A stretch of DNA of 20,736 nucleotides. Source: a virus. The stretch is taken from IMG/VR virus record IMGVR_UViG_3300030110_003460, positions 1,995 through 22,730 of that record; one strand, written 5' to 3'. Under the pieces are notes generated by a model, which was given only the letters and a program-made list of their open reading frames with translations, ran no database searches and was not told where the DNA came from. This document shows positions 5,991 to 16,400 of this stretch, one piece after another. A program made the position numbers and the translations under genes. Within the stretch, counting starts at the first letter, position 1; each line of letters begins with the position of its first letter.

Positions 5991-7376
5991 ATGTCCGAGC
6001 GTAAGTGGTATCAGTTTTGGCGTGGCGATGAAGCCAAGCCAACAAGTGTAAGTGCAAGAGTAAGTACAAAGAAAGAAGGTTTTAGAGCAGTAGCGGGAGT
6101 ACCCGATGTCATGCGTGATACAGAAAGGCTGCAAAAAGATAGTAATTATGACAACGAGTTTGACATGTACGACCTCATGCTGAAACTTGACCCAGAATTG
6201 AACGGAGCGGTTCGCGCTGTCAGCCTTACTGCTAACAATTACGAGATAAATTACGCCAAAGGTAAGAATGCGGCTATCCGCAACGCAATCAAAGAACTGG
6301 TAGAAGACACGTTAGACTTCGATGACATCCTCATTACCGCTCTCAGGAACCTAATGGTTTACGGAAACGACATAAACAAGATAGTAGGAAAGCAGAATGT
6401 GGGTATAACAAACCTACAAAGCCTACCTGTCAAGCAAATTACCATAGTCGATGAAAGGGGAGGCTTGGAAAAGAGTTTCAACGCCGATGAGGAAAACCCC
6501 ATCATACACGCGGAGAAGTACATTATGAGGGAGCAGAAGTACAACACCGTGTCTATTCCCGCGCAGGAGATACTACACATAAGGGTTGACTACCGCTCTA
6601 ACTGGTTTGTTGACAACAAGGGCCGCAAGACCTACGGCGTGTGGGGCGCTTCTAGATTTACCGCTCTCAAGCAAGCCATACGCATGAAGTACAACAGTCT
6701 AAACAACCGCCTGTCCCTTGAGGATAGTATGACCAAGCAGTACATTACTATAGACAAGTCTGCCATAGAGCATATCCAAGACCCGGCAGAGCAAAGCGAA
6801 AGGTTAAATCACATTATGGGTGAAGTTATCAAACTATTCGAGGGACTACGGGGCGACCAAATACCTGTGCTGCCACACTACGTTAACCTGCACCATGTTG
6901 ACCTTGAGAACAGCCTACCTAACAGTGGCGACTTCTTGGATGCTATAAACGCAGATATAGCAGCCGTGCTACAAGTACCGCGAGTGGCCGCAGGACAGGA
7001 GAAGGGTAGCACATTCGCCGCTACCTTCAACGCTAATCTATGGGCCGTACAAGCAATCAGTAGAATGCATAGCATCCTTGCCTTCCATTGCAGGGAACTG
7101 TTCTCGATGCACCTAAAGTTACTAGGAATAGAACACAAGATGGCAGACCTACCTACTATCCGGTTTGACGCTATGGACAGTGAAACGCCACTAAATGTAA
7201 TGCAAAGGGTGACTATGGGTTATGAGTCTGGGGTTCTTACGTTAAATCAGGCGTTAGATATTCTGAATTTACCAGAGGTGTCAAACGGCAATGAAAGAAA
7301 AAACAGTGGTTCATCTGATGTCGGTGCCTTACCGCGCGAAAACTCACAACCCGGCGCAGAAGAAAATATTGAATAA
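5991..7376 (+). CDS. Portal protein (461 aa)
   Basis: The portal forms the ring at one head vertex through which DNA enters, and to which terminase and tail dock. The protein has the family layout: a variable N-terminus, a segment DPELNGAVRAVSLTANNYEINY (about 67-88), ILHIRVDYRSNWF followed by KTYGVWGASRF (about 194-222) that matches the conserved portal core, and a helical region VPRVAAGQEKGSTFAATFNANL (about 330-351) typical of the stem and wing. The C-terminus is low complexity and polar. Length fits the compact portals. It is the first gene of the head operon, facing away from terL, and is probably read from a leaderless message. Confidence 0.88.
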   Translation: MSERKWYQFWRGDEAKPTSVSARVSTKKEGFRAVAGVPDVMRDTERLQKDSNYDNEFDMYDLMLKLDPELNGAVRAVSLTANNYEINYAKGKNAAIRNAIKELVEDTLDFDDILITALRNLMVYGNDINKIVGKQNVGITNLQSLPVKQITIVDERGGLEKSFNADEENPIIHAEKYIMREQKYNTVSIPAQEILHIRVDYRSNWFVDNKGRKTYGVWGASRFTALKQAIRMKYNSLNNRLSLEDSMTKQYITIDKSAIEHIQDPAEQSERLNHIMGEVIKLFEGLRGDQIPVLPHYVNLHHVDLENSLPNSGDFLDAINADIAAVLQVPRVAAGQEKGSTFAATFNANLWAVQAISRMHSILAFHCRELFSMHLKLLGIEHKMADLPTIRFDAMDSETPLNVMQRVTMGYESGVLTLNQALDILNLPEVSNGNERKNSGSSDVGALPRENSQPGAEENIE

Positions 7377-7398: not shown

Positions 7399-8322
7399 AT
7401 GAGCGGAGATGAGGAACAGAACATCATTCAGGAATTGAATGCGCGATTTCAAGAATTGCGAGCCTTGATGATTACCATAGGTTCTGTCATAGCCATGCTG
7501 CTTGCAGGTCTCAACGAAGTCGGTTTTATCTCCTTCGCGGTAGATTCGCTTGTTGATTGGGTTGAGAATGACCCTGACCGGAATCCTTACCTTCCTGACT
7601 GTGAAGAAGATTGGTTAATTGTAGCAGACCACTATATTGTTGATGGTGATTTGTACGTCACAGTAGATATTCTAGACGATGCGTGGTGCAACAACGTTCA
7701 CACTGTTTTCTATAATGTGACCTTTGAGGGAGAAGAGTATAGTGAAGAAAGTGCGCCATTTAGAAATACCGATACTGGATTATTTACTTTTGAAAATATT
7801 TCAGAAGGCACACACAGAGTAAACATTTTAGTAGAAAACGGTACTATTCTACTTTATGCCCTAGAGATAATTGATTTTGAGTATGACCAAAGCGAAGAAG
7901 AAAACGCAGTCTATGGTTGCACTGACCCTGCGGCAATAAACTACAACGAAACTGCTACGCACGAAGATGGGTCTTGTGAGTATCCCGAAGAAGAGGAAGA
8001 AATAACAGAAGATTGCTACGCATACATATATGATGCAATTTCTTATTGGGCCGAAAACAATACTTCGGTCTACAACGAGTTTGATGTTGATTTCTCCTGT
8101 CAAGCCAACGTGACCTTTACAATGCAAGTAGAATTATTAGATAGTCGTAATAACTCACTACTTTACATGGAAGATAATTTTACTACATATCATATGGAGT
8201 GGGATACTAAATACTTGGATTTCTATGACATACCAGAAAGGTATGAAGAATCTTATGGCGTAAATTTTAATCTGTACTATGATGGGGAGTTGTCGGATAC
8301 ACTATGGACACAAATCATATAA
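7399..8322 (+). CDS. Membrane-anchored acidic protein with GCTDP motif (307 aa)
   Basis: The frame is open from 7291, inside the portal gene; I prefer ATG 7399, 23 bases after the portal stop. The product has a short polar N-terminus, one membrane segment (MITIGSVIAMLLAGL, about 24-38), and then a long acidic, Cys-containing part. Residues about 172-195 carry a YGCTDPAAINY-type motif ending DGSCEY, a repeat unit known from secreted proteins of marine bacteria and archaea. The flanking parts look beta-rich. The Cys and acidity suggest that the C-terminal part is outside the cell or on the virion. Its DNA is AT-richer in codon choice than the capsid genes, so it may be an acquired gene. Function unknown; an adhesin, receptor blocker or envelope protein is possible. 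Confidence 0.7.
   Translation: MSGDEEQNIIQELNARFQELRALMITIGSVIAMLLAGLNEVGFISFAVDSLVDWVENDPDRNPYLPDCEEDWLIVADHYIVDGDLYVTVDILDDAWCNNVHTVFYNVTFEGEEYSEESAPFRNTDTGLFTFENISEGTHRVNILVENGTILLYALEIIDFEYDQSEEENAVYGCTDPAAINYNETATHEDGSCEYPEEEEEITEDCYAYIYDAISYWAENNTSVYNEFDVDFSCQANVTFTMQVELLDSRNNSLLYMEDNFTTYHMEWDTKYLDFYDIPERYEESYGVNFNLYYDGELSDTLWTQII
7912..7983 (+). other. GCTDP-x-A-x-NY motif unit
   Basis: This 24-codon segment fits the pattern G-C-T-D-P-x-A-x-N-Y, then A-T-x-x-D-G-S-C-E-Y. The motif is usually found in tandem in large secreted marine proteins; here there is a single copy. Confidence 0.6.
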
Positions 8323-8414
8323 TTCCTTTAGGTATAGTATTAATAGGTGCAATGAATTGGGGTTTTTCCATTTGGTGGGCCAAGCGCTCTTACAAAAGAA
8401 GAAAGAAGCATTAA
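8304..8414 (+). CDS. 36-aa membrane peptide
   Basis: ATG 8304 overlaps the end of the GCTDP gene by 19 bases; TAA is at 8412-8414, eight bases before the protease start. The peptide has one hydrophobic stretch (IIPLGIVLIGAMNWGFSIWWA, about 6-26) and a strongly basic tail (KRSYKRRKKH), so the C-terminus should stay in the cytoplasm. A GGGGAG run lies 14 bases upstream. The size and topology resemble holin-like or host-membrane-acting peptides, but nothing identifies its function. The tight packing between two genes and the coherent membrane design favour a real gene. Confidence 0.55.
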   Translation: MDTNHIIPLGIVLIGAMNWGFSIWWAKRSYKRRKKH

Positions 8415-8422
8415 TAAATCAC

Positions 8423-10693
8423 ATGAGTCGTCGGGCTACCATGTCGTGCGGATGTGGTTGCGGTGGCGAGGTAGTAGCCTATGAAGATTGGGAAGAAGCA
8501 GATGTCATCGCAGCCGAATACCAAGGTAGAAAGGTTACTCTAAACAAACCTTTTCGCACGCCCGGAGCAAACAAGAAGTTTGGCGTGTACACTAAGAATG
8601 AAAGTGGCAACGTGGTCCTAGTAAGGTTTGGCGACCCTAACATGGAAATAAAGAGGGATGACCCACAAAGGAGAAAAAACTTCCGAAGCCGACATAATTG
8701 CGACAGTCCGGGTCCTAAATATAAGGCACGATACTGGTCTTGCAGACAATGGAGAGGTGGTACTAAGGTGGAAGCAGAAGAATGCGGATGTAATGATGTA
8801 GTAGCAGAAGAATGCGAATGTGAGTATGGGTGCAACTGTGGACTTCCCTGCTGTTCAGAAGTAGGTATAGCAGATGAGAGAAGCACACCTGCACCCAAGA
8901 AAGACAGAATAAAAGGCTCTCCTAAAAACAAGCCCGGTTCAGCAAAGCCCGGTGGTAAGGTCACTTTCTCTGAAGGGGTCACTAACTCACTTAAGACTAA
9001 GGTAAAAGAACACAACGCCAAGAGTGACAGAAAAGTCACACTTGGTATGCTAAAGGCAGTTTACCGCAGAGGCGCGGGAGCCTACTCTACATCCCATCGG
9101 CCCGGTGTATCTAGAGCCGCATGGTCAATGGCTAGAGTCAACGCCTTCCTAAGACTTGTCAAGAGCGGCAAGCCTTCAAACCCTAAGTACAAGCAGGACA
9201 ATGACTTGCTACCAAGCAGTCACCCAAGAAAAAGCAAGAAGGCTGCTATGGAACATTGTGATGCTTGTGCAGATACCGCAGCCTGTTCAAAGCACGGTTG
9301 TATGAAAGAAGCAAAGGAAGATGATAAGATGAAAAAGAAAATGAAAGTTTATGGAGAAAAAGATATATTTGACAATCCCGGTGACGCGATGGAAAGAGCA
9401 AAAGAAATGGGATGTGGTGGTATTCACTCTCACAAAGAAGATGGAAAAACAATCTACATGCCCTGTAAGACTCATCAAGAATATATGTCCAAGAATGAAG
9501 GTAAGGATGTCGATGAAGAAGCGGGATACGGTCATAAAAAGAAGTACGCCAACGAGTGCAAGCCCGGTGAAAAGATGATTGACGGAGAGTGCAAGCGCGT
9601 GTACGCGAGCATAGAACTAGATATGGATGAGGTAGAGGCCATAGTAGAAGCAAGCACAGGAGAGACAGTCATAGAAATAAGAGGTGTCGCATTCCACGAA
9701 GGTATGAACAAAAACAAGTGGGAATTGACTTTAGAAGGAGCAAAGCATGTAGTACAGCAAATGATTGGCTCAGATGTAACACTTAACCATCCTAAGCCAA
9801 ACAGTGACGCAGCAGGATTTTCAAGAAACATGGAGGGTCTAGACGAGTCAACAGTTGGCGTAATAAAGTCGGCACAGTTGTATTCTACAGTAGCCGGTGG
9901 ATACGAAGTTAGATATGTAGCACATATTACTACGCCCGATTTATTCGAAACTATGGAGTCCGGCCTGTACCTGAGAGAGGACTACGGTGTTAGCATTGGC
10001 GGGTCAGGCATCCCCGTTGCGGCGACTGAGGATGGTATTACCTTTGGAGAGGACTTTACCTTTGACCATTTGGCTTTAGTGTATCGTCCTGCGTATCAAC
10101 GCGCTAATATAGAATCAATTGAGAAAATTGAAAAAGAGGCAAAGGTCGAGGCAACCTTTATATCACACTCAGACTCTGCCGAGATTAGTAAGGATTTGGT
10201 GAATGATATGTCAGAAGAAACTATTACCCCAGAAATCGACTACGAGGCTCAGATTGAGTCCCTCAAGGCCGACCTTGTTCTTGCTTCTTCCCGCGTAGCG
10301 GAGTTCGAAGCACTAGACGAGGCACGCGCTGAAGAGGCTCGCGCTTCTCTCGTTGAGAGAGCAACTGAAATCGGGATGTCCGGTCACGAAGACCTACAGT
10401 CAGAAACTCTTGAGAATCTGATTGCTTCGTGGGAGGCTTCCCACCCAGAGCCGGCCGAAGTCGAGATGAAGCCAGTTGATGAAAGCCCTGCCGAGATGGA
10501 GGCACCAGTTGTCGCATCCGAAGAAGAGAAGCCAGTTGTGGCTAACTTCCTAAACGGCAGACTTGTAGAGTCCGATGAGGAAATCTACGGACGCGCATAC
10601 AATGCTTGGGCAAGCGCATGGAACGGAACACTCGCAGGTGATGAAGGCAACATGAGAGCCAAGACCTACGAAGAAATAAAGGAGATGATTTGA
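8423..10693 (+). CDS. Head maturation protease fused to scaffold, with Cys-rich N-terminal domains (756 aa)
   Basis: I start at ATG 8423; the frame is open upstream to 8279, but that part overlaps two other genes, and ATG 8441 (MSCGCGCGG) is a further option. Domain order (numbered from 8423): an FGDPNMEIKRDDP domain found at the N-terminus of many marine phage proteases (about 35-112); a Cys cluster (about 119-145); a domain with VTLGMLKAVYRRGAGA and SHRPGVSRAAWSMARVNAF (about 160-270), as in DUF5824/DUF6321-type phage proteins; a second Cys group and an MGCGGIHSH segment; the protease with LNHP (His456), GVSIGG (Ser524) and DHLALVYRPAY; then an acidic coiled-coil scaffold (about 603-690). 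It would guide capsid assembly and then cut the scaffold and itself. About 21 Cys lie before the protease domain. Confidence 0.8.
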   Translation: MSRRATMSCGCGCGGEVVAYEDWEEADVIAAEYQGRKVTLNKPFRTPGANKKFGVYTKNESGNVVLVRFGDPNMEIKRDDPQRRKNFRSRHNCDSPGPKYKARYWSCRQWRGGTKVEAEECGCNDVVAEECECEYGCNCGLPCCSEVGIADERSTPAPKKDRIKGSPKNKPGSAKPGGKVTFSEGVTNSLKTKVKEHNAKSDRKVTLGMLKAVYRRGAGAYSTSHRPGVSRAAWSMARVNAFLRLVKSGKPSNPKYKQDNDLLPSSHPRKSKKAAMEHCDACADTAACSKHGCMKEAKEDDKMKKKMKVYGEKDIFDNPGDAMERAKEMGCGGIHSHKEDGKTIYMPCKTHQEYMSKNEGKDVDEEAGYGHKKKYANECKPGEKMIDGECKRVYASIELDMDEVEAIVEASTGETVIEIRGVAFHEGMNKNKWELTLEGAKHVVQQMIGSDVTLNHPKPNSDAAGFSRNMEGLDESTVGVIKSAQLYSTVAGGYEVRYVAHITTPDLFETMESGLYLREDYGVSIGGSGIPVAATEDGITFGEDFTFDHLALVYRPAYQRANIESIEKIEKEAKVEATFISHSDSAEISKDLVNDMSEETITPEIDYEAQIESLKADLVLASSRVAEFEALDEARAEEARASLVERATEIGMSGHEDLQSETLENLIASWEASHPEPAEVEMKPVDESPAEMEAPVVASEEEKPVVANFLNGRLVESDEEIYGRAYNAWASAWNGTLAGDEGNMRAKTYEEIKEMI

Positions 10694-10694
10694 A

Positions 10695-11186
10695 ATGGTA
10701 GCATTTGGAAGCGCAGACCCACTAGACGCAGTAATGATTGACGACAAGATATGCAAGGGAGTCGGAAAAATCCTAACCTTTGACGGAACCAACAACAAGG
10801 TTGACCTATCCGCCGCAACTGAGATTGCTATAGGCATCTCAGCAGGAGAGTCCGAGAGAGATTCCTCTCGCGGGATGGACATAACCGCCCCAAAGGTTTC
10901 TTTCTTCCCACTTGGAGGTGTACTGATGGTTCAGGTCGCCGCCGGTGAGACTCTAACTACCGGAGAGACAATGTACGTCGGTGCAAACGGACTTGCAACT
11001 TCGACTGCTGGCTCCAACAAGAAACTCGGTCTTTACGTTGGAAAGGGAATTGACCCAACCCCTGCTCTAGTTGATTCAGGAGCAGGTGACAAACTCACAA
11101 ACGCAGGTGTAGCCGGAAACGGTACAACTGAGTTGACTGAGGGAGCATTGATACCCATAATGACGGCGGGGGCCGCAATAGCATAG
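10695..11186 (+). CDS. Head decoration protein candidate (163 aa)
   Basis: ATG 10695 follows the protease stop by one base and has GGAGATGAT (10681-10689) in front. The product is small, Gly/Ala/Thr-rich and beta-rich, with VQVAAGETLTTGETMYVGANG and LGLYVGKG (about 79-118), a pattern resembling DUF2190-type capsid decoration proteins. Its position directly between the protease-scaffold and the major capsid protein is the usual place for a decoration protein that binds the outside of the expanded head and stabilises it. No catalytic residues are apparent. The family assignment is by pattern and position only. Confidence 0.65.
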   Translation: MVAFGSADPLDAVMIDDKICKGVGKILTFDGTNNKVDLSAATEIAIGISAGESERDSSRGMDITAPKVSFFPLGGVLMVQVAAGETLTTGETMYVGANGLATSTAGSNKKLGLYVGKGIDPTPALVDSGAGDKLTNAGVAGNGTTELTEGALIPIMTAGAAIA

Positions 11187-13053: not shown

Positions 13054-13462
13054 TTTACTCAACAGACCTAGAGGACTGAATGAGGGTACCATTACTGAGT
13101 ACATAACAATTCGCACAGCAGAAGTTAACAAGAAGGCTAGAGCCGTAGACTATTTTGGTGGTACAGCAGACAATGTACCTACTACTACACTAAAAGAATC
13201 TGCAATCAAGATGATGGTATGTGCTGATTGTCTACGTGTACTGATTGATACAATACCAGCATGGGTACCAGAGAAAGAGCAAGGAACACAGGACGTTAGA
13301 TTTAATCAACAACTTAAGTCGTTTGAAAAGCAAGCGCTTGAAGCGATAAGAGCAATAGAAGAGAAGGGTGGTGCAGCCTTCAAGGTCGATGCTACCACAT
13401 CGAGAGTAGGTGGCACAACGTCAGCGCAACTGAGCGGAAGCATTCATCCTACTAACAGATAG
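13025..13462 (+). CDS. Head-tail adaptor candidate (145 aa)
   Basis: ATG 13025 lies inside the end of the SAP-like gene and has GGTGA (13014-13018) six bases upstream. The product is mainly helical: TTAQIRDLLNRP at the N-terminus, then TITEYITIRTAEVNKKARAVDYF, LKESAIKMMVCADCLRVLIDT, and a long C-terminal helix NQQLKSFEKQALEAIRAIEEKG, with a polar tail. A small all-helical protein after the capsid gene is what one expects for the adaptor that sits under the portal and joins head to tail (gp6/gp15-type). The assignment rests on position and secondary structure, not on a recognised signature. Confidence 0.55.
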   Translation: MAVTTAQIRDLLNRPRGLNEGTITEYITIRTAEVNKKARAVDYFGGTADNVPTTTLKESAIKMMVCADCLRVLIDTIPAWVPEKEQGTQDVRFNQQLKSFEKQALEAIRAIEEKGGAAFKVDATTSRVGGTTSAQLSGSIHPTNR

Positions 13463-13473
13463 TAGGTGATGTT

Positions 13474-16400
13474 ATGGCGACAAGGACATGGAACGGCGAC
13501 GTAAATACTGAATTCGCTAATGCAGCGAATTGGAGTAGCAACACAGCCCCGGTTAGTGGAGATACAGTAGTCTTTGACTCAAGCGCAGATGCCAACGCAG
13601 TTCTTGTAGACCTGCGGCCATCTTCCGGTCAATTCGCAGAGGTAATTATAGAAAATAACTTCGACCAACTACTGTCATTTGAACACGCTACTGCGCAGAT
13701 AAAAACTAATAAATTAACAATAAAAGCAAAAGGTAAAATAAAGGATACTACCGGCGGTAAAATTACCTTTGTTGGTGGTGGTACCTCTGGTGTATTTGTA
13801 TTCTTCAATCATGCTGACATGGCTTCTGGGCCACTTGGTATGTTCGATACTACTCTATCGAGAACTAGAATGTTTTTTGACTTTAGTGGCGTTACAGCCG
13901 GAACAGCAATAAAATTAGAAAACGGCGTGTATCCCAATATACTACTTACAGGTACAGGAAACAATAGTACCTTTAGCCCTACTGCTGTGACTGCCGCAGG
14001 AACAAACACATATCCTACCACAGATATTTTGACGTTCCAAACAGATAGCGATACTTCTATTATACCCGCTACAAAGAATCAAGCAGACCTAGGTAAGATT
14101 TTTAGAATCCACGGAGGTATATATGCACAATGCGCAGATTTTAATTGGGGTAATACTACTTTAGAAATACAACCACAGGATGCAAGCGGAAGTAAAGTAC
14201 CTTACAATGGTGCTTATTTTGCAAGCGGTAATTTTAGATTTGGTACAACAGGCAAGATATTCAAAGCCAAATACAATCATCTTCGTATTGCATCCAATAC
14301 CGGAAAGTATTTCGAATTAGATTCTGGTGCTATTTTATCTTGCAATAAATTAACTATTTTACCTAACGCAAGATTTTATGGGCCTGATACTACTGTAAAC
14401 AAAGGAGCGGAAATACAAACTATAGAACAACCCACTATACAGGGCGATTGGAACTTTGCGCAGATAGCCGAGGGTATTTACAGAAGTAGGAGCAACCCGC
14501 CACCGTATCAAGAATACCATAGCATTCTCGCTAACAATCTAGGGTCAAACGGTCAGGTATTAGCCATCGCTTCTGACGGCTCGCTTGAGTGGTCTTCTTC
14601 CGCAGGTGGTGGGGGAGTAACAGTTGAAAATGCTGGCAACGCACTAAGCACTACTGCTACTATTCTTGACTTTACTGGTAATGGAGTGACAGCAAGCGGT
14701 TCGGGCGCCGAAAAAACTATTGCAATTAGTAACACTAACCAACTTACTGAGTTTACCTTAGCGGGAGATAGCGGAAGCAGTCAGACTATTGCACATGGCA
14801 ATACTTTAACAATAGCGGGCGGTACTAACATTAGTTCTGTAGCAAGTGCTACTGATACAATTACGCTAAATGTAGATGATGCTTTTATTAAGAATGACGC
14901 TAACGATACCACAAGTGGCACTATAACTGCGGCGGGGTTTACTACTACGGATGGTCCTGTTAGTTTTAAGAGAGATAATAATAGTGCCGTGACAATGGTA
15001 GTAGAACAAGACGGTGACGGAGATATTGCTACCTTTAAAGGCGCAAGCGATGAGTTACTTACTATTAGAAGAACGGGAAGCATTAAATTTAACTTAAGCA
15101 CTGCCGGTGGCTCGGCTACTGAAAATATAATATCTTATCGTGATACTGGCGGCGATGAAAGAACCCTTCTTTCTGTGGATGCCGGAACAATTGTTCTTCA
15201 TAATCGCGGCCCTGATGGTGATGTGGAAATTAGGGGAAACACTAGCACTGCCGGAGCAAGCGGAGAAACAACCATAGCAAAGTTTGAAGATACTGCAATT
15301 AATCTTTACAAAAATGTCGTAGTAGGAGGCAACCTAACTGTAAGCGGTACTACAACAACTCTTTCTTCGACCACAGTTGCTACAGGCGACTCTATGCTTT
15401 CTCTTGCTACAGGACAAACGACAGAAGGTGCAGACGCAATTGACATAGGGTTGTATGGAACATATAACGTGGATGATGGCGATGCTGGTAGTAGCACAGG
15501 TATTCAGAAATGGGCTGGACTATTTAGGGATGCCAACGATAGCGGTAAATTTAAGTTGTTTAAAGACGTACAAGCCGAACCTACTACTACTGTAAATACT
15601 AGCGCGACAGGCTACACAGTAGCAAGTCTAGTTGCTAATCTTGAGGGTAACGTCACAGGAAATGTAACAGGAAATGTAAGCGGCTCTGCCGGTTCTGCTA
15701 CAGGAAATGCCGCGACTGCGACAGCGCTAGAGACTGCAAGGGCAATCAACGGTGTGAACTTTGATGGTACTGCCGCTATTACTGTCCCAGCCGCAGGTAG
15801 TACACTTACTGATACAGTCACAGTAGCAAAGGGTGGTACAGGCGCAACAAGCCTAACAAATAATGCTATACTAACAGGGGCAGGGACAAGTGCCATCACA
15901 GCAGAATCTACCTTTACTTATGTAACAGGTGTTTTAGAAATGAACGTAGGTTCAGATGGTTCTAATGATGCGGCTAACATGGTCTTAGATGGTCATGTCA
16001 CATCTAGCACTAACACAGTATCAGAAATATTAGTGAAAAACAAAGGCGATTCTATTACTAGAATTCTAACGGGTAGGGATAGTTCTGATACTGCGGGATT
16101 CCTCACTTTCTCAACACAACCCTCCGGTGGTAGCATAACAGAAAGAATGAGAATAACTTCTGCGGGTAATATCGGAATAGGCACTACAAGTCCCACCTTC
16201 CCTCTTCATCTGACATACACAGATGATGATACTGGGCCGGAAGGAGGCCATGCTTCGGGTGCATCAGGGACAATCGGTACAAGCGCAGAAGGCGGCGGTT
16301 TGTATATCGAGAACGAATCAACACAAGATGGTTCTTATGCGGGCATCACATTCAGAACCGATACTGCCGATGCTAGGATTGCATGGCAATCAGTAGGGTC

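Follow-up and report, generated by a model that had tools for sequence, protein, structure and literature searches.

Two known kinds of viral gene come close to the locus described here: cargo genes carried amid the structural genes of phages, and genes encoding surface exclusion proteins. Moron or cargo loci hold exchangeable genes in a fixed slot, as is the case for the gene that we refer to as P307, which is present as an inverted copy in one relative (L020). Unlike in those loci, however, the P307 slot was empty in 0 of the 87 distinct slots compared, and membrane-protein genes were always present in it. Phage superinfection-exclusion membrane proteins are made by the virus and reside in the host envelope, as we propose for P307, but no sequence relation between them and P307 was found, and the P307 ectodomain is large, sequon-rich, and exchangeable. 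To our knowledge, host exit and the exclusion of rivals are largely unknown in tailed archaeal viruses, and the probable hosts of the virus studied here are uncultured. Among marine viruses, the closest are magroviruses and other tailed viruses of Poseidoniales (marine group II). Magroviruses are described as combining a family-B polymerase (PolB) and an ERCC4 nuclease with portal, terminase, capsid, and protease genes (PMC10160649), and this combination is matched by a 71-kb relative of our virus (G005).

What is new in our study is an exchangeable, sequon-rich, stalked protein, predicted to lie at the cell surface, of probable archaeal tailed viruses. We read P307 as cargo in a variable slot of a tailed-virus head operon, encoding a surface glycoprotein that would act on the host envelope, and we give this reading a probability of about 0.6.

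The P307 and p36 genes

The window, that is, the whole stretch of DNA analysed (20,736 nucleotides), belongs to a virus record of 22.7 kb (IMGVR_UViG_3300030110_003460). The original prediction placed open reading frames of 307 and 36 amino acids between a portal and a protease gene, and both are present as described (Table 1), with an overlap of 19 nt. The mechanical P307 reading frame opens at an ATG at 7291, and the conserved start of the homologues aligns at 7399. The genes for the terminase large subunit and for an exonuclease-like protein are on the opposite strand of the window. The gene at the 3' border of the slot is protease-like in our reading of its sequence and place, and no family library (Pfam, PHROGs, NCBIfam) gives it a name. 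Its Cys-rich N-terminal part is long, and the presence and length of this part differ among relatives.

Table 1. Features of the slot and of the P307 gene, in window coordinates.
Feature	Position	Strand	Evidence
Portal protein gene, 5' border of the slot	5991..7376	+	PF04860 E=4.8e-8 (short of Pfam's own cut-off); phrog_12 E=4.6e-5
P307 gene, 307 aa plus stop	7399..8322	+	Open reading frame, homologue alignment, dN/dS
Nmod, residues 1-58: predicted cytosolic helix and transmembrane helix (20-38), strongly conserved	7399..7572	+	Alignment, model, dN/dS 0.052
Block in which L018 diverges (about 59-77% DNA identity; 91-100% on the 3' side up to 8774)	7470..7960	+	DNA comparison with window
Ig1, residues 59-165: predicted membrane-proximal beta-sandwich, exchanged among viruses	7573..7893	+	Models, DNA comparison, dN/dS
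GCTDP stalk, residues 166-205, which includes an acidic EEEEE tract	7894..8013	+	Alignment; low model confidence
Ig2, residues 206-307: predicted beta-sandwich of Ig-like type, similar to the GH2 Ig-like domain	8014..8319	+	VIA-align Z 13.4, rmsd 1.7 over 100 residues
p36: 36-aa membrane peptide, single helix, basic C-terminus	8304..8414	+	Open reading frame, hydropathy, dN/dS
Prohead-protease-position gene, 3' border of the slot (Cys-rich N-terminal part and protease-like region)	8423..10693	+	Sequence, position

P307 had been described as a membrane-anchored acidic protein with a GCTDP motif, which our analysis bears out: hydrophobicity is strong over residues 20-38 (Kyte-Doolittle mean 2.06), acidic residues (68 D+E) far outnumber basic ones (8 K+R), and the motif is present (GCTDPAAINYNETATHEDGSCEY). 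A first scan returned 31 contigs, with P307 in 29 viral contigs (one a 47-residue stub at a contig end) and only the GCTDP motif in common in the other two. Homologues shared 58-95% identity with the window protein, and BFVD contained one close relative (75% identity). The p36 peptide was found in 13 distinct slots including the window, with a length of 36 aa in all 13. Other viral contigs also have these genes in the portal-protease interval, where the original prediction proposed to look for them, and P307 in 29 viral contigs excludes the possibility that the pair is absent from all relatives.

The alignment of homologues (A1) had 26 rows, comprising the 29 P307 loci of the first scan minus L005, L006, L008, and L030 (near-copies or stub) plus the window. 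Averaged over pairs with 0.05<dS<1.5 only, dN/dS was lowest in the anchor and the stalk (0.05 each), intermediate in Ig2 (0.09), and highest in Ig1 (0.16); p36 had a value of 0.16 (codons 8-36). Judged by these sequence comparisons, P307 and p36 are real genes. Positive selection on P307 was considered and is not supported, with dN/dS well under 1 in every domain and Ig1 simply the least constrained of them.

Neither P307 nor p36 matched a lysis family in Pfam, PHROGs, or NCBIfam, and P307 matched no exclusion family and no function-naming family in these libraries. Searched against a phage collection, P307 had no match up to E=1, and no description of P307 or the slot was among the matches listed from the open-licence literature. 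The codon use of the pair had been called AT-richer than that of capsid genes. This holds relative to portal and capsid (GC3 of 0.37 versus 0.51 and 0.56), but the composition is not special: GC3 is equally low in the tail fibre (0.36), g1 (0.35), and g4 (0.34) of the same window. We therefore reject codon use as an indication that the pair was captured.

Predicted fold and topology

The full P307 model (26 sequences; mean pLDDT 66.7) had an N-terminal long helix followed by two beta-sandwiches that are joined by a linker of low confidence, and a model of the ectodomain only (22 sequences) reached a pLDDT of 77.5 and a pTM of 0.60. Ig1 was modelled with seven strands at a pLDDT mostly above 80, and the fold-comparison rows cover only residues 147-248 of the ectodomain model. 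Whole-model Foldseek searches were set aside: given that query TM-scores were at most 0.26 among the PDB matches listed, only the VIA-align match of Ig2 was used. In this match, predicted Ig2 resembles the GH2-type immunoglobulin-like beta-sandwich at 12% identity, but P307 lacks the GH2 catalytic barrel; the likeness is one of fold, and a shared fold implies no function. The P307 profile had no match up to E=1 among the sequences of solved structures.

All 26 homologues carried 8-12 sequons in the ectodomain (nine in the window protein), compared to about 2.5 (range 1.8-3.0) expected from shuffles. The same excess was present in the four tested relatives of the LDL-A type described below, and none was found in eleven other window proteins. 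Seven sequon columns were kept in 26/26 homologues; among these, S and T exchanged at the third position in five and the middle position varied in five, the pattern that conservation of the sequon as such would produce. Six cysteines were likewise present in the ectodomain of every homologue, and the first 60 residues contained zero sequons and zero cysteines. P307 is predicted to be a single-pass protein with N-in/C-out topology that stands on the infected-cell surface, with probable disulphides in its ectodomain, which we infer from the sequon pattern to be N-glycosylated. Hydropathy, sequons, and cysteines therefore agree with the membrane anchorage and export suggested earlier, as predicted properties. 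Given that sequons and cysteines are confined to the ectodomain, P307 is unlikely to be a plain internal head protein.

A variable slot between portal and protease

A same-strand portal gene lay upstream of P307 in 28 of the 29 first-scan contigs, the exception being the inverted copy of L020, and the protease gene came next after P307 in all 24 contigs that reach that far. We extended the comparison to 87 distinct slots, using a portal scan (best 80 of 206 relatives), an M168 scan (best 80 of 122), and a P307 profile scan, and excluding slots without a recognised portal or downstream gene, with genes on opposite strands, with a non-positive gap, or duplicated by their first 500 nt. P307-family genes occupied 36 slots and genes for another membrane protein, M168, occupied 63, with both present in 12 and neither in 0, a zero that is biased because P307, portal, and M168 themselves served as the search queries; the portal-gathered loci are the fairest part of the sample. 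P307-family genes were missing from 51/87 slots.

In the portal-scan relatives, small membrane-protein genes fill the slots (27 slots read). Among the slot partners were an anchored protein of 119 aa and short proteins with one or two helices, in addition to a ferredoxin, a methyltransferase, and a homologue of staphylococcal nuclease. The statement that the pair interrupts an otherwise standard head cassette is therefore misleading, since all compared relatives have membrane-protein cargo at this place.

Several partners could be located individually. A 4Fe-4S ferredoxin gene was found in the slot of L093 (8200-8472, Pfam Fer4) and in those of L094 and L187; a staphylococcal-nuclease homologue lay beside an LDL-A-type P307 in L178 (PF00565 E=3e-14) and, by eye, in L199 and L207; and a DNA methyltransferase-like gene headed the slot of L114 (5406-6008, phrog_757 E=1.5e-62), L115, and L120.

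A search with a single M168 sequence gave no M168 match in six records, those of the window, L003, L006, L011, L021 (68 kb), and L029 (71 kb). We considered P307 as a simple replacement of M168, given the absence of M168 from L021 and L029; yet 12/87 slots carry both, and replacement is therefore not general. In the L089 record, the M168 match at 13396-13821 has two TAA in its span, yet a 164-aa open frame is given. A 51-aa anchor-like protein, M51, was located beside M168 in five slots (HMM E of 1.2e-4 to 5e-3 in a small database), and from its sequence it seems to be the P307 anchor module on its own.

A later profile scan revealed more distant P307 members. Two of these, L262 and L263, have P307 followed by a small gene and then the protease, while a long tail-fibre-like ORF (by eye) and a 95-aa ORF stand upstream, with no portal. 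Distant relatives kept the anchor and the Ig2-like end and had a changed middle part. In 11 slots, an LDL-receptor-A-like segment (by eye) was present in place of Ig1. Most of these LDL-A-type relatives had two GCTD units, and in L195, L207, and L209 these units were absent, with an Asn/Thr-rich stretch (13 sequons) instead. L178 passed the PF00057 cut-off (27.9 versus 24.1 bits), L136 missed it (22.2 bits), and the window P307 did not match this family in the Pfam search.

Domain exchange and mobility

Comparison of the window with L018 showed DNA identities of 99% in Ig2, 93% in the protease gene, 91% in the p36 region, and 95% at the portal 3' end (484 of 1386 nt compared), compared to only 62% in Ig1, 82% in the stalk, and 84% in Nmod. 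This sharp Ig1 difference comes from one contig and could be an assembly error, although the same combination of domain types recurs in L020. The 26 homologues fell into two Ig1 types, about 45-50% identical to each other, and two Ig2 types, at about 52%, which were combined as a-a, b-b, and b-a, the last common to L018 and the more divergent L020.

Nearest relatives also differed between genes: the window portal was closest to that of L015 (95%), whereas the window P307 was closest to that of L003 (95%) and only 78% identical to that of L015, so the histories of the portal and P307 genes disagree. On a portal tree of 79 rows, from which portals shorter than 300 aa were left out, the state of having P307 without M168 required six changes, at least five of them forced by well-supported branches. 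In L020, the inverted P307 gene lies between 32-nt direct repeats that are 995 nt apart and 91% alike, and L089, a close relative of L020, has one related repeat site at this place and no P307. Judging from the repeats, the L020 gene looks like an insertion with site duplication.

Virus affinity and host-type modules

The 71-kb relative G005, which is the record of L029, encodes a family-B polymerase, an ERCC4-type nuclease, and an RFC-like ATPase, the first two alongside portal, terminase, major capsid protein (MCP), and protease-position genes. Its polymerase was closest to those of haloarchaeal viruses among the matches listed (24-25% identity). The 71-kb relative also encodes a Cpn60 chaperonin (L150 8363-9853, PF00118 E=1.6e-40). 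Given that neither portal nor MCP matched any of 50,697 phage records (MCP up to E=0.01), we place the virus in no named family. The terminase large subunit had only distant matches in the phage collection, mostly to cyanophages and below 30% identity among the matches listed, and a search for tRNA genes in six loci returned none.

A GCTDP search of cellular genomes yielded 43 loci, three of them with euryarchaeote titles and most from Bacteroidota. Given this distribution and the fact that the search pattern was taken from the viral form, GCTDP alone is weak evidence for a host. In the three euryarchaeote-titled MAGs (L035, L038, and L039), GCTDP units occurred in an apparent secreted amylase (by eye) with a C-terminal anchor. 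These marine euryarchaeal amylases resemble P307 in their GCTDP units, N/T-rich stretches, and membrane anchor, and in the ATHDDGSC form of the units, which is also present in P307 homologues. However, they are enzymes anchored at the C-terminus, whereas P307 has an N-terminal anchor and no catalytic domain, and the two have in common just the GCTDP motif and adjoining residues.

Within one marine euryarchaeal family, to which one of these three MAGs belongs, 52/78 genomes matched the P307 profile, nearly all at the GCTDP motif. LDL-A was present in 30/38 genomes of the same family (27 above cut-off) and in 0/14 control genomes, and the STT3 oligosaccharyltransferase exceeded its cut-off in 35/38 genomes of this presumed host family. 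The hosts are probably marine euryarchaea and presumably Poseidoniales. Sequence matches indicate that P307 is partly made of domain types in use by marine archaea too. The LDL-receptor-A domain is best known from animals, and its use, with that of other cell-surface domain types, would here extend to viruses and to the archaea that they probably infect. Capture of the pair from a cellular host, as first proposed, is retained in part: a cellular source is supported for some modules (GCTDP, LDL-A), but no full-length cellular homologue of P307 was found in the cellular genome searches, and the pair was therefore not captured whole from a host gene visible to them.

Proposed function of the predicted surface protein

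In the mechanism that we propose, the infected cell would carry P307 on its outside, with the anchor followed by Ig1, the GCTDP stalk, and Ig2. The anchor is nearly constant, while recombination would replace Ig1, and distant relatives have an LDL-receptor-A-like segment in its stead. This variable part would bind a strain-variable component of the host envelope, presumably the S-layer or another surface glycoprotein. The location of its gene amid head genes suggests that P307 is probably made late. From the surface of the infected cell it would then act on the host envelope, and in the option that we rank first it would help to loosen this envelope for exit together with the small membrane peptides of the slot.

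Such a surface glycoprotein could serve either exit or the exclusion of rivals, and we rank exit first. As an exit protein, which we favour tentatively and at somewhat less than even odds, the anchor would permeabilise the membrane with the slot peptides (p36, M51, M50, M168, and an 82-aa one-helix protein), while the ectodomain would pull the S-layer apart. Small membrane proteins are abundant in the slot, the anchor module apparently stands alone as M51 next to M168, and the place in the head operon fits. However, the only holin match, to the 82-aa protein, was sub-threshold (E=0.075), P307 has no enzymatic domain, and the literature searched yielded no description of lysis in the presumed hosts. 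Exclusion proteins of lytic phages are often early and late genes serve mostly assembly or exit, and gene position alone therefore cannot separate exit from exclusion. Superinfection exclusion comes second and seems rather unlikely; P307 would then mask, alter, or mimic a receptor against competing viruses, and the Ig1 type would set which of them are excluded. The predicted cell-surface topology, the sequons, and the exchange of Ig1 between two types are consistent with it, but the head-gene location suggests late expression, and matches to exclusion families were absent from Pfam, PHROGs, and NCBIfam. The tailed archaeal virus HFTV1 bears on both sides: its description names an S-layer glycoprotein as its receptor and reports Ig-like domains in Haloferax S-layer proteins, which favours exclusion, but it also reports that no superinfection exclusion was seen (PMC9973310).

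Roles away from the envelope fit the slot less well. The constant position by portal and protease and the strongly conserved N-terminal module would suit a protein that tethers the portal to the membrane while heads are assembled or travels in the virion, but we regard this as very improbable: sequons and cysteines are confined to the ectodomain, more than half of the slots (51/87) do without the P307 family, the L020 copy is inverted, and in L262 and L263 P307 is not linked to a portal. Accessory cargo without an envelope role, such as an adhesin that aggregates infected cells or sticks to particles, is improbable as well, if slightly less so. Ferredoxin, nuclease, and methyltransferase genes among the slot partners point in this direction, and domains of the Ig-like and LDL-A types serve as binding modules in general, but membrane-protein genes in 87/87 slots, albeit under biased sampling, go beyond what free cargo would lead one to expect.

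At a broader scale, tailed viruses of marine archaea may display a modular surface glycoprotein made of host-type modules, with a membrane-proximal domain swapped by homologous recombination between conserved flanks, in a serotype-like compatibility system, a generalisation that we consider conceivable yet doubtful. If true, such a system would set compatibility at the cell surface, either among rival viruses or towards the host S-layer when the virus exits. The slot, the constant anchor, and the two Ig1 types together provide a concrete gene set that could be tested in a model archaeon.

Divergence between close relatives was also seen downstream of the slot. The decoration gene of L018 had diverged from that of the window (61%). 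The decoration-like gene of the window (10695-11186) shared 43-48% identity with L003 and L009, whose major capsid protein is 97-98% identical, and 76-78% with L007 and L008; from these comparisons, it seems to be another exchanged outer-surface gene.
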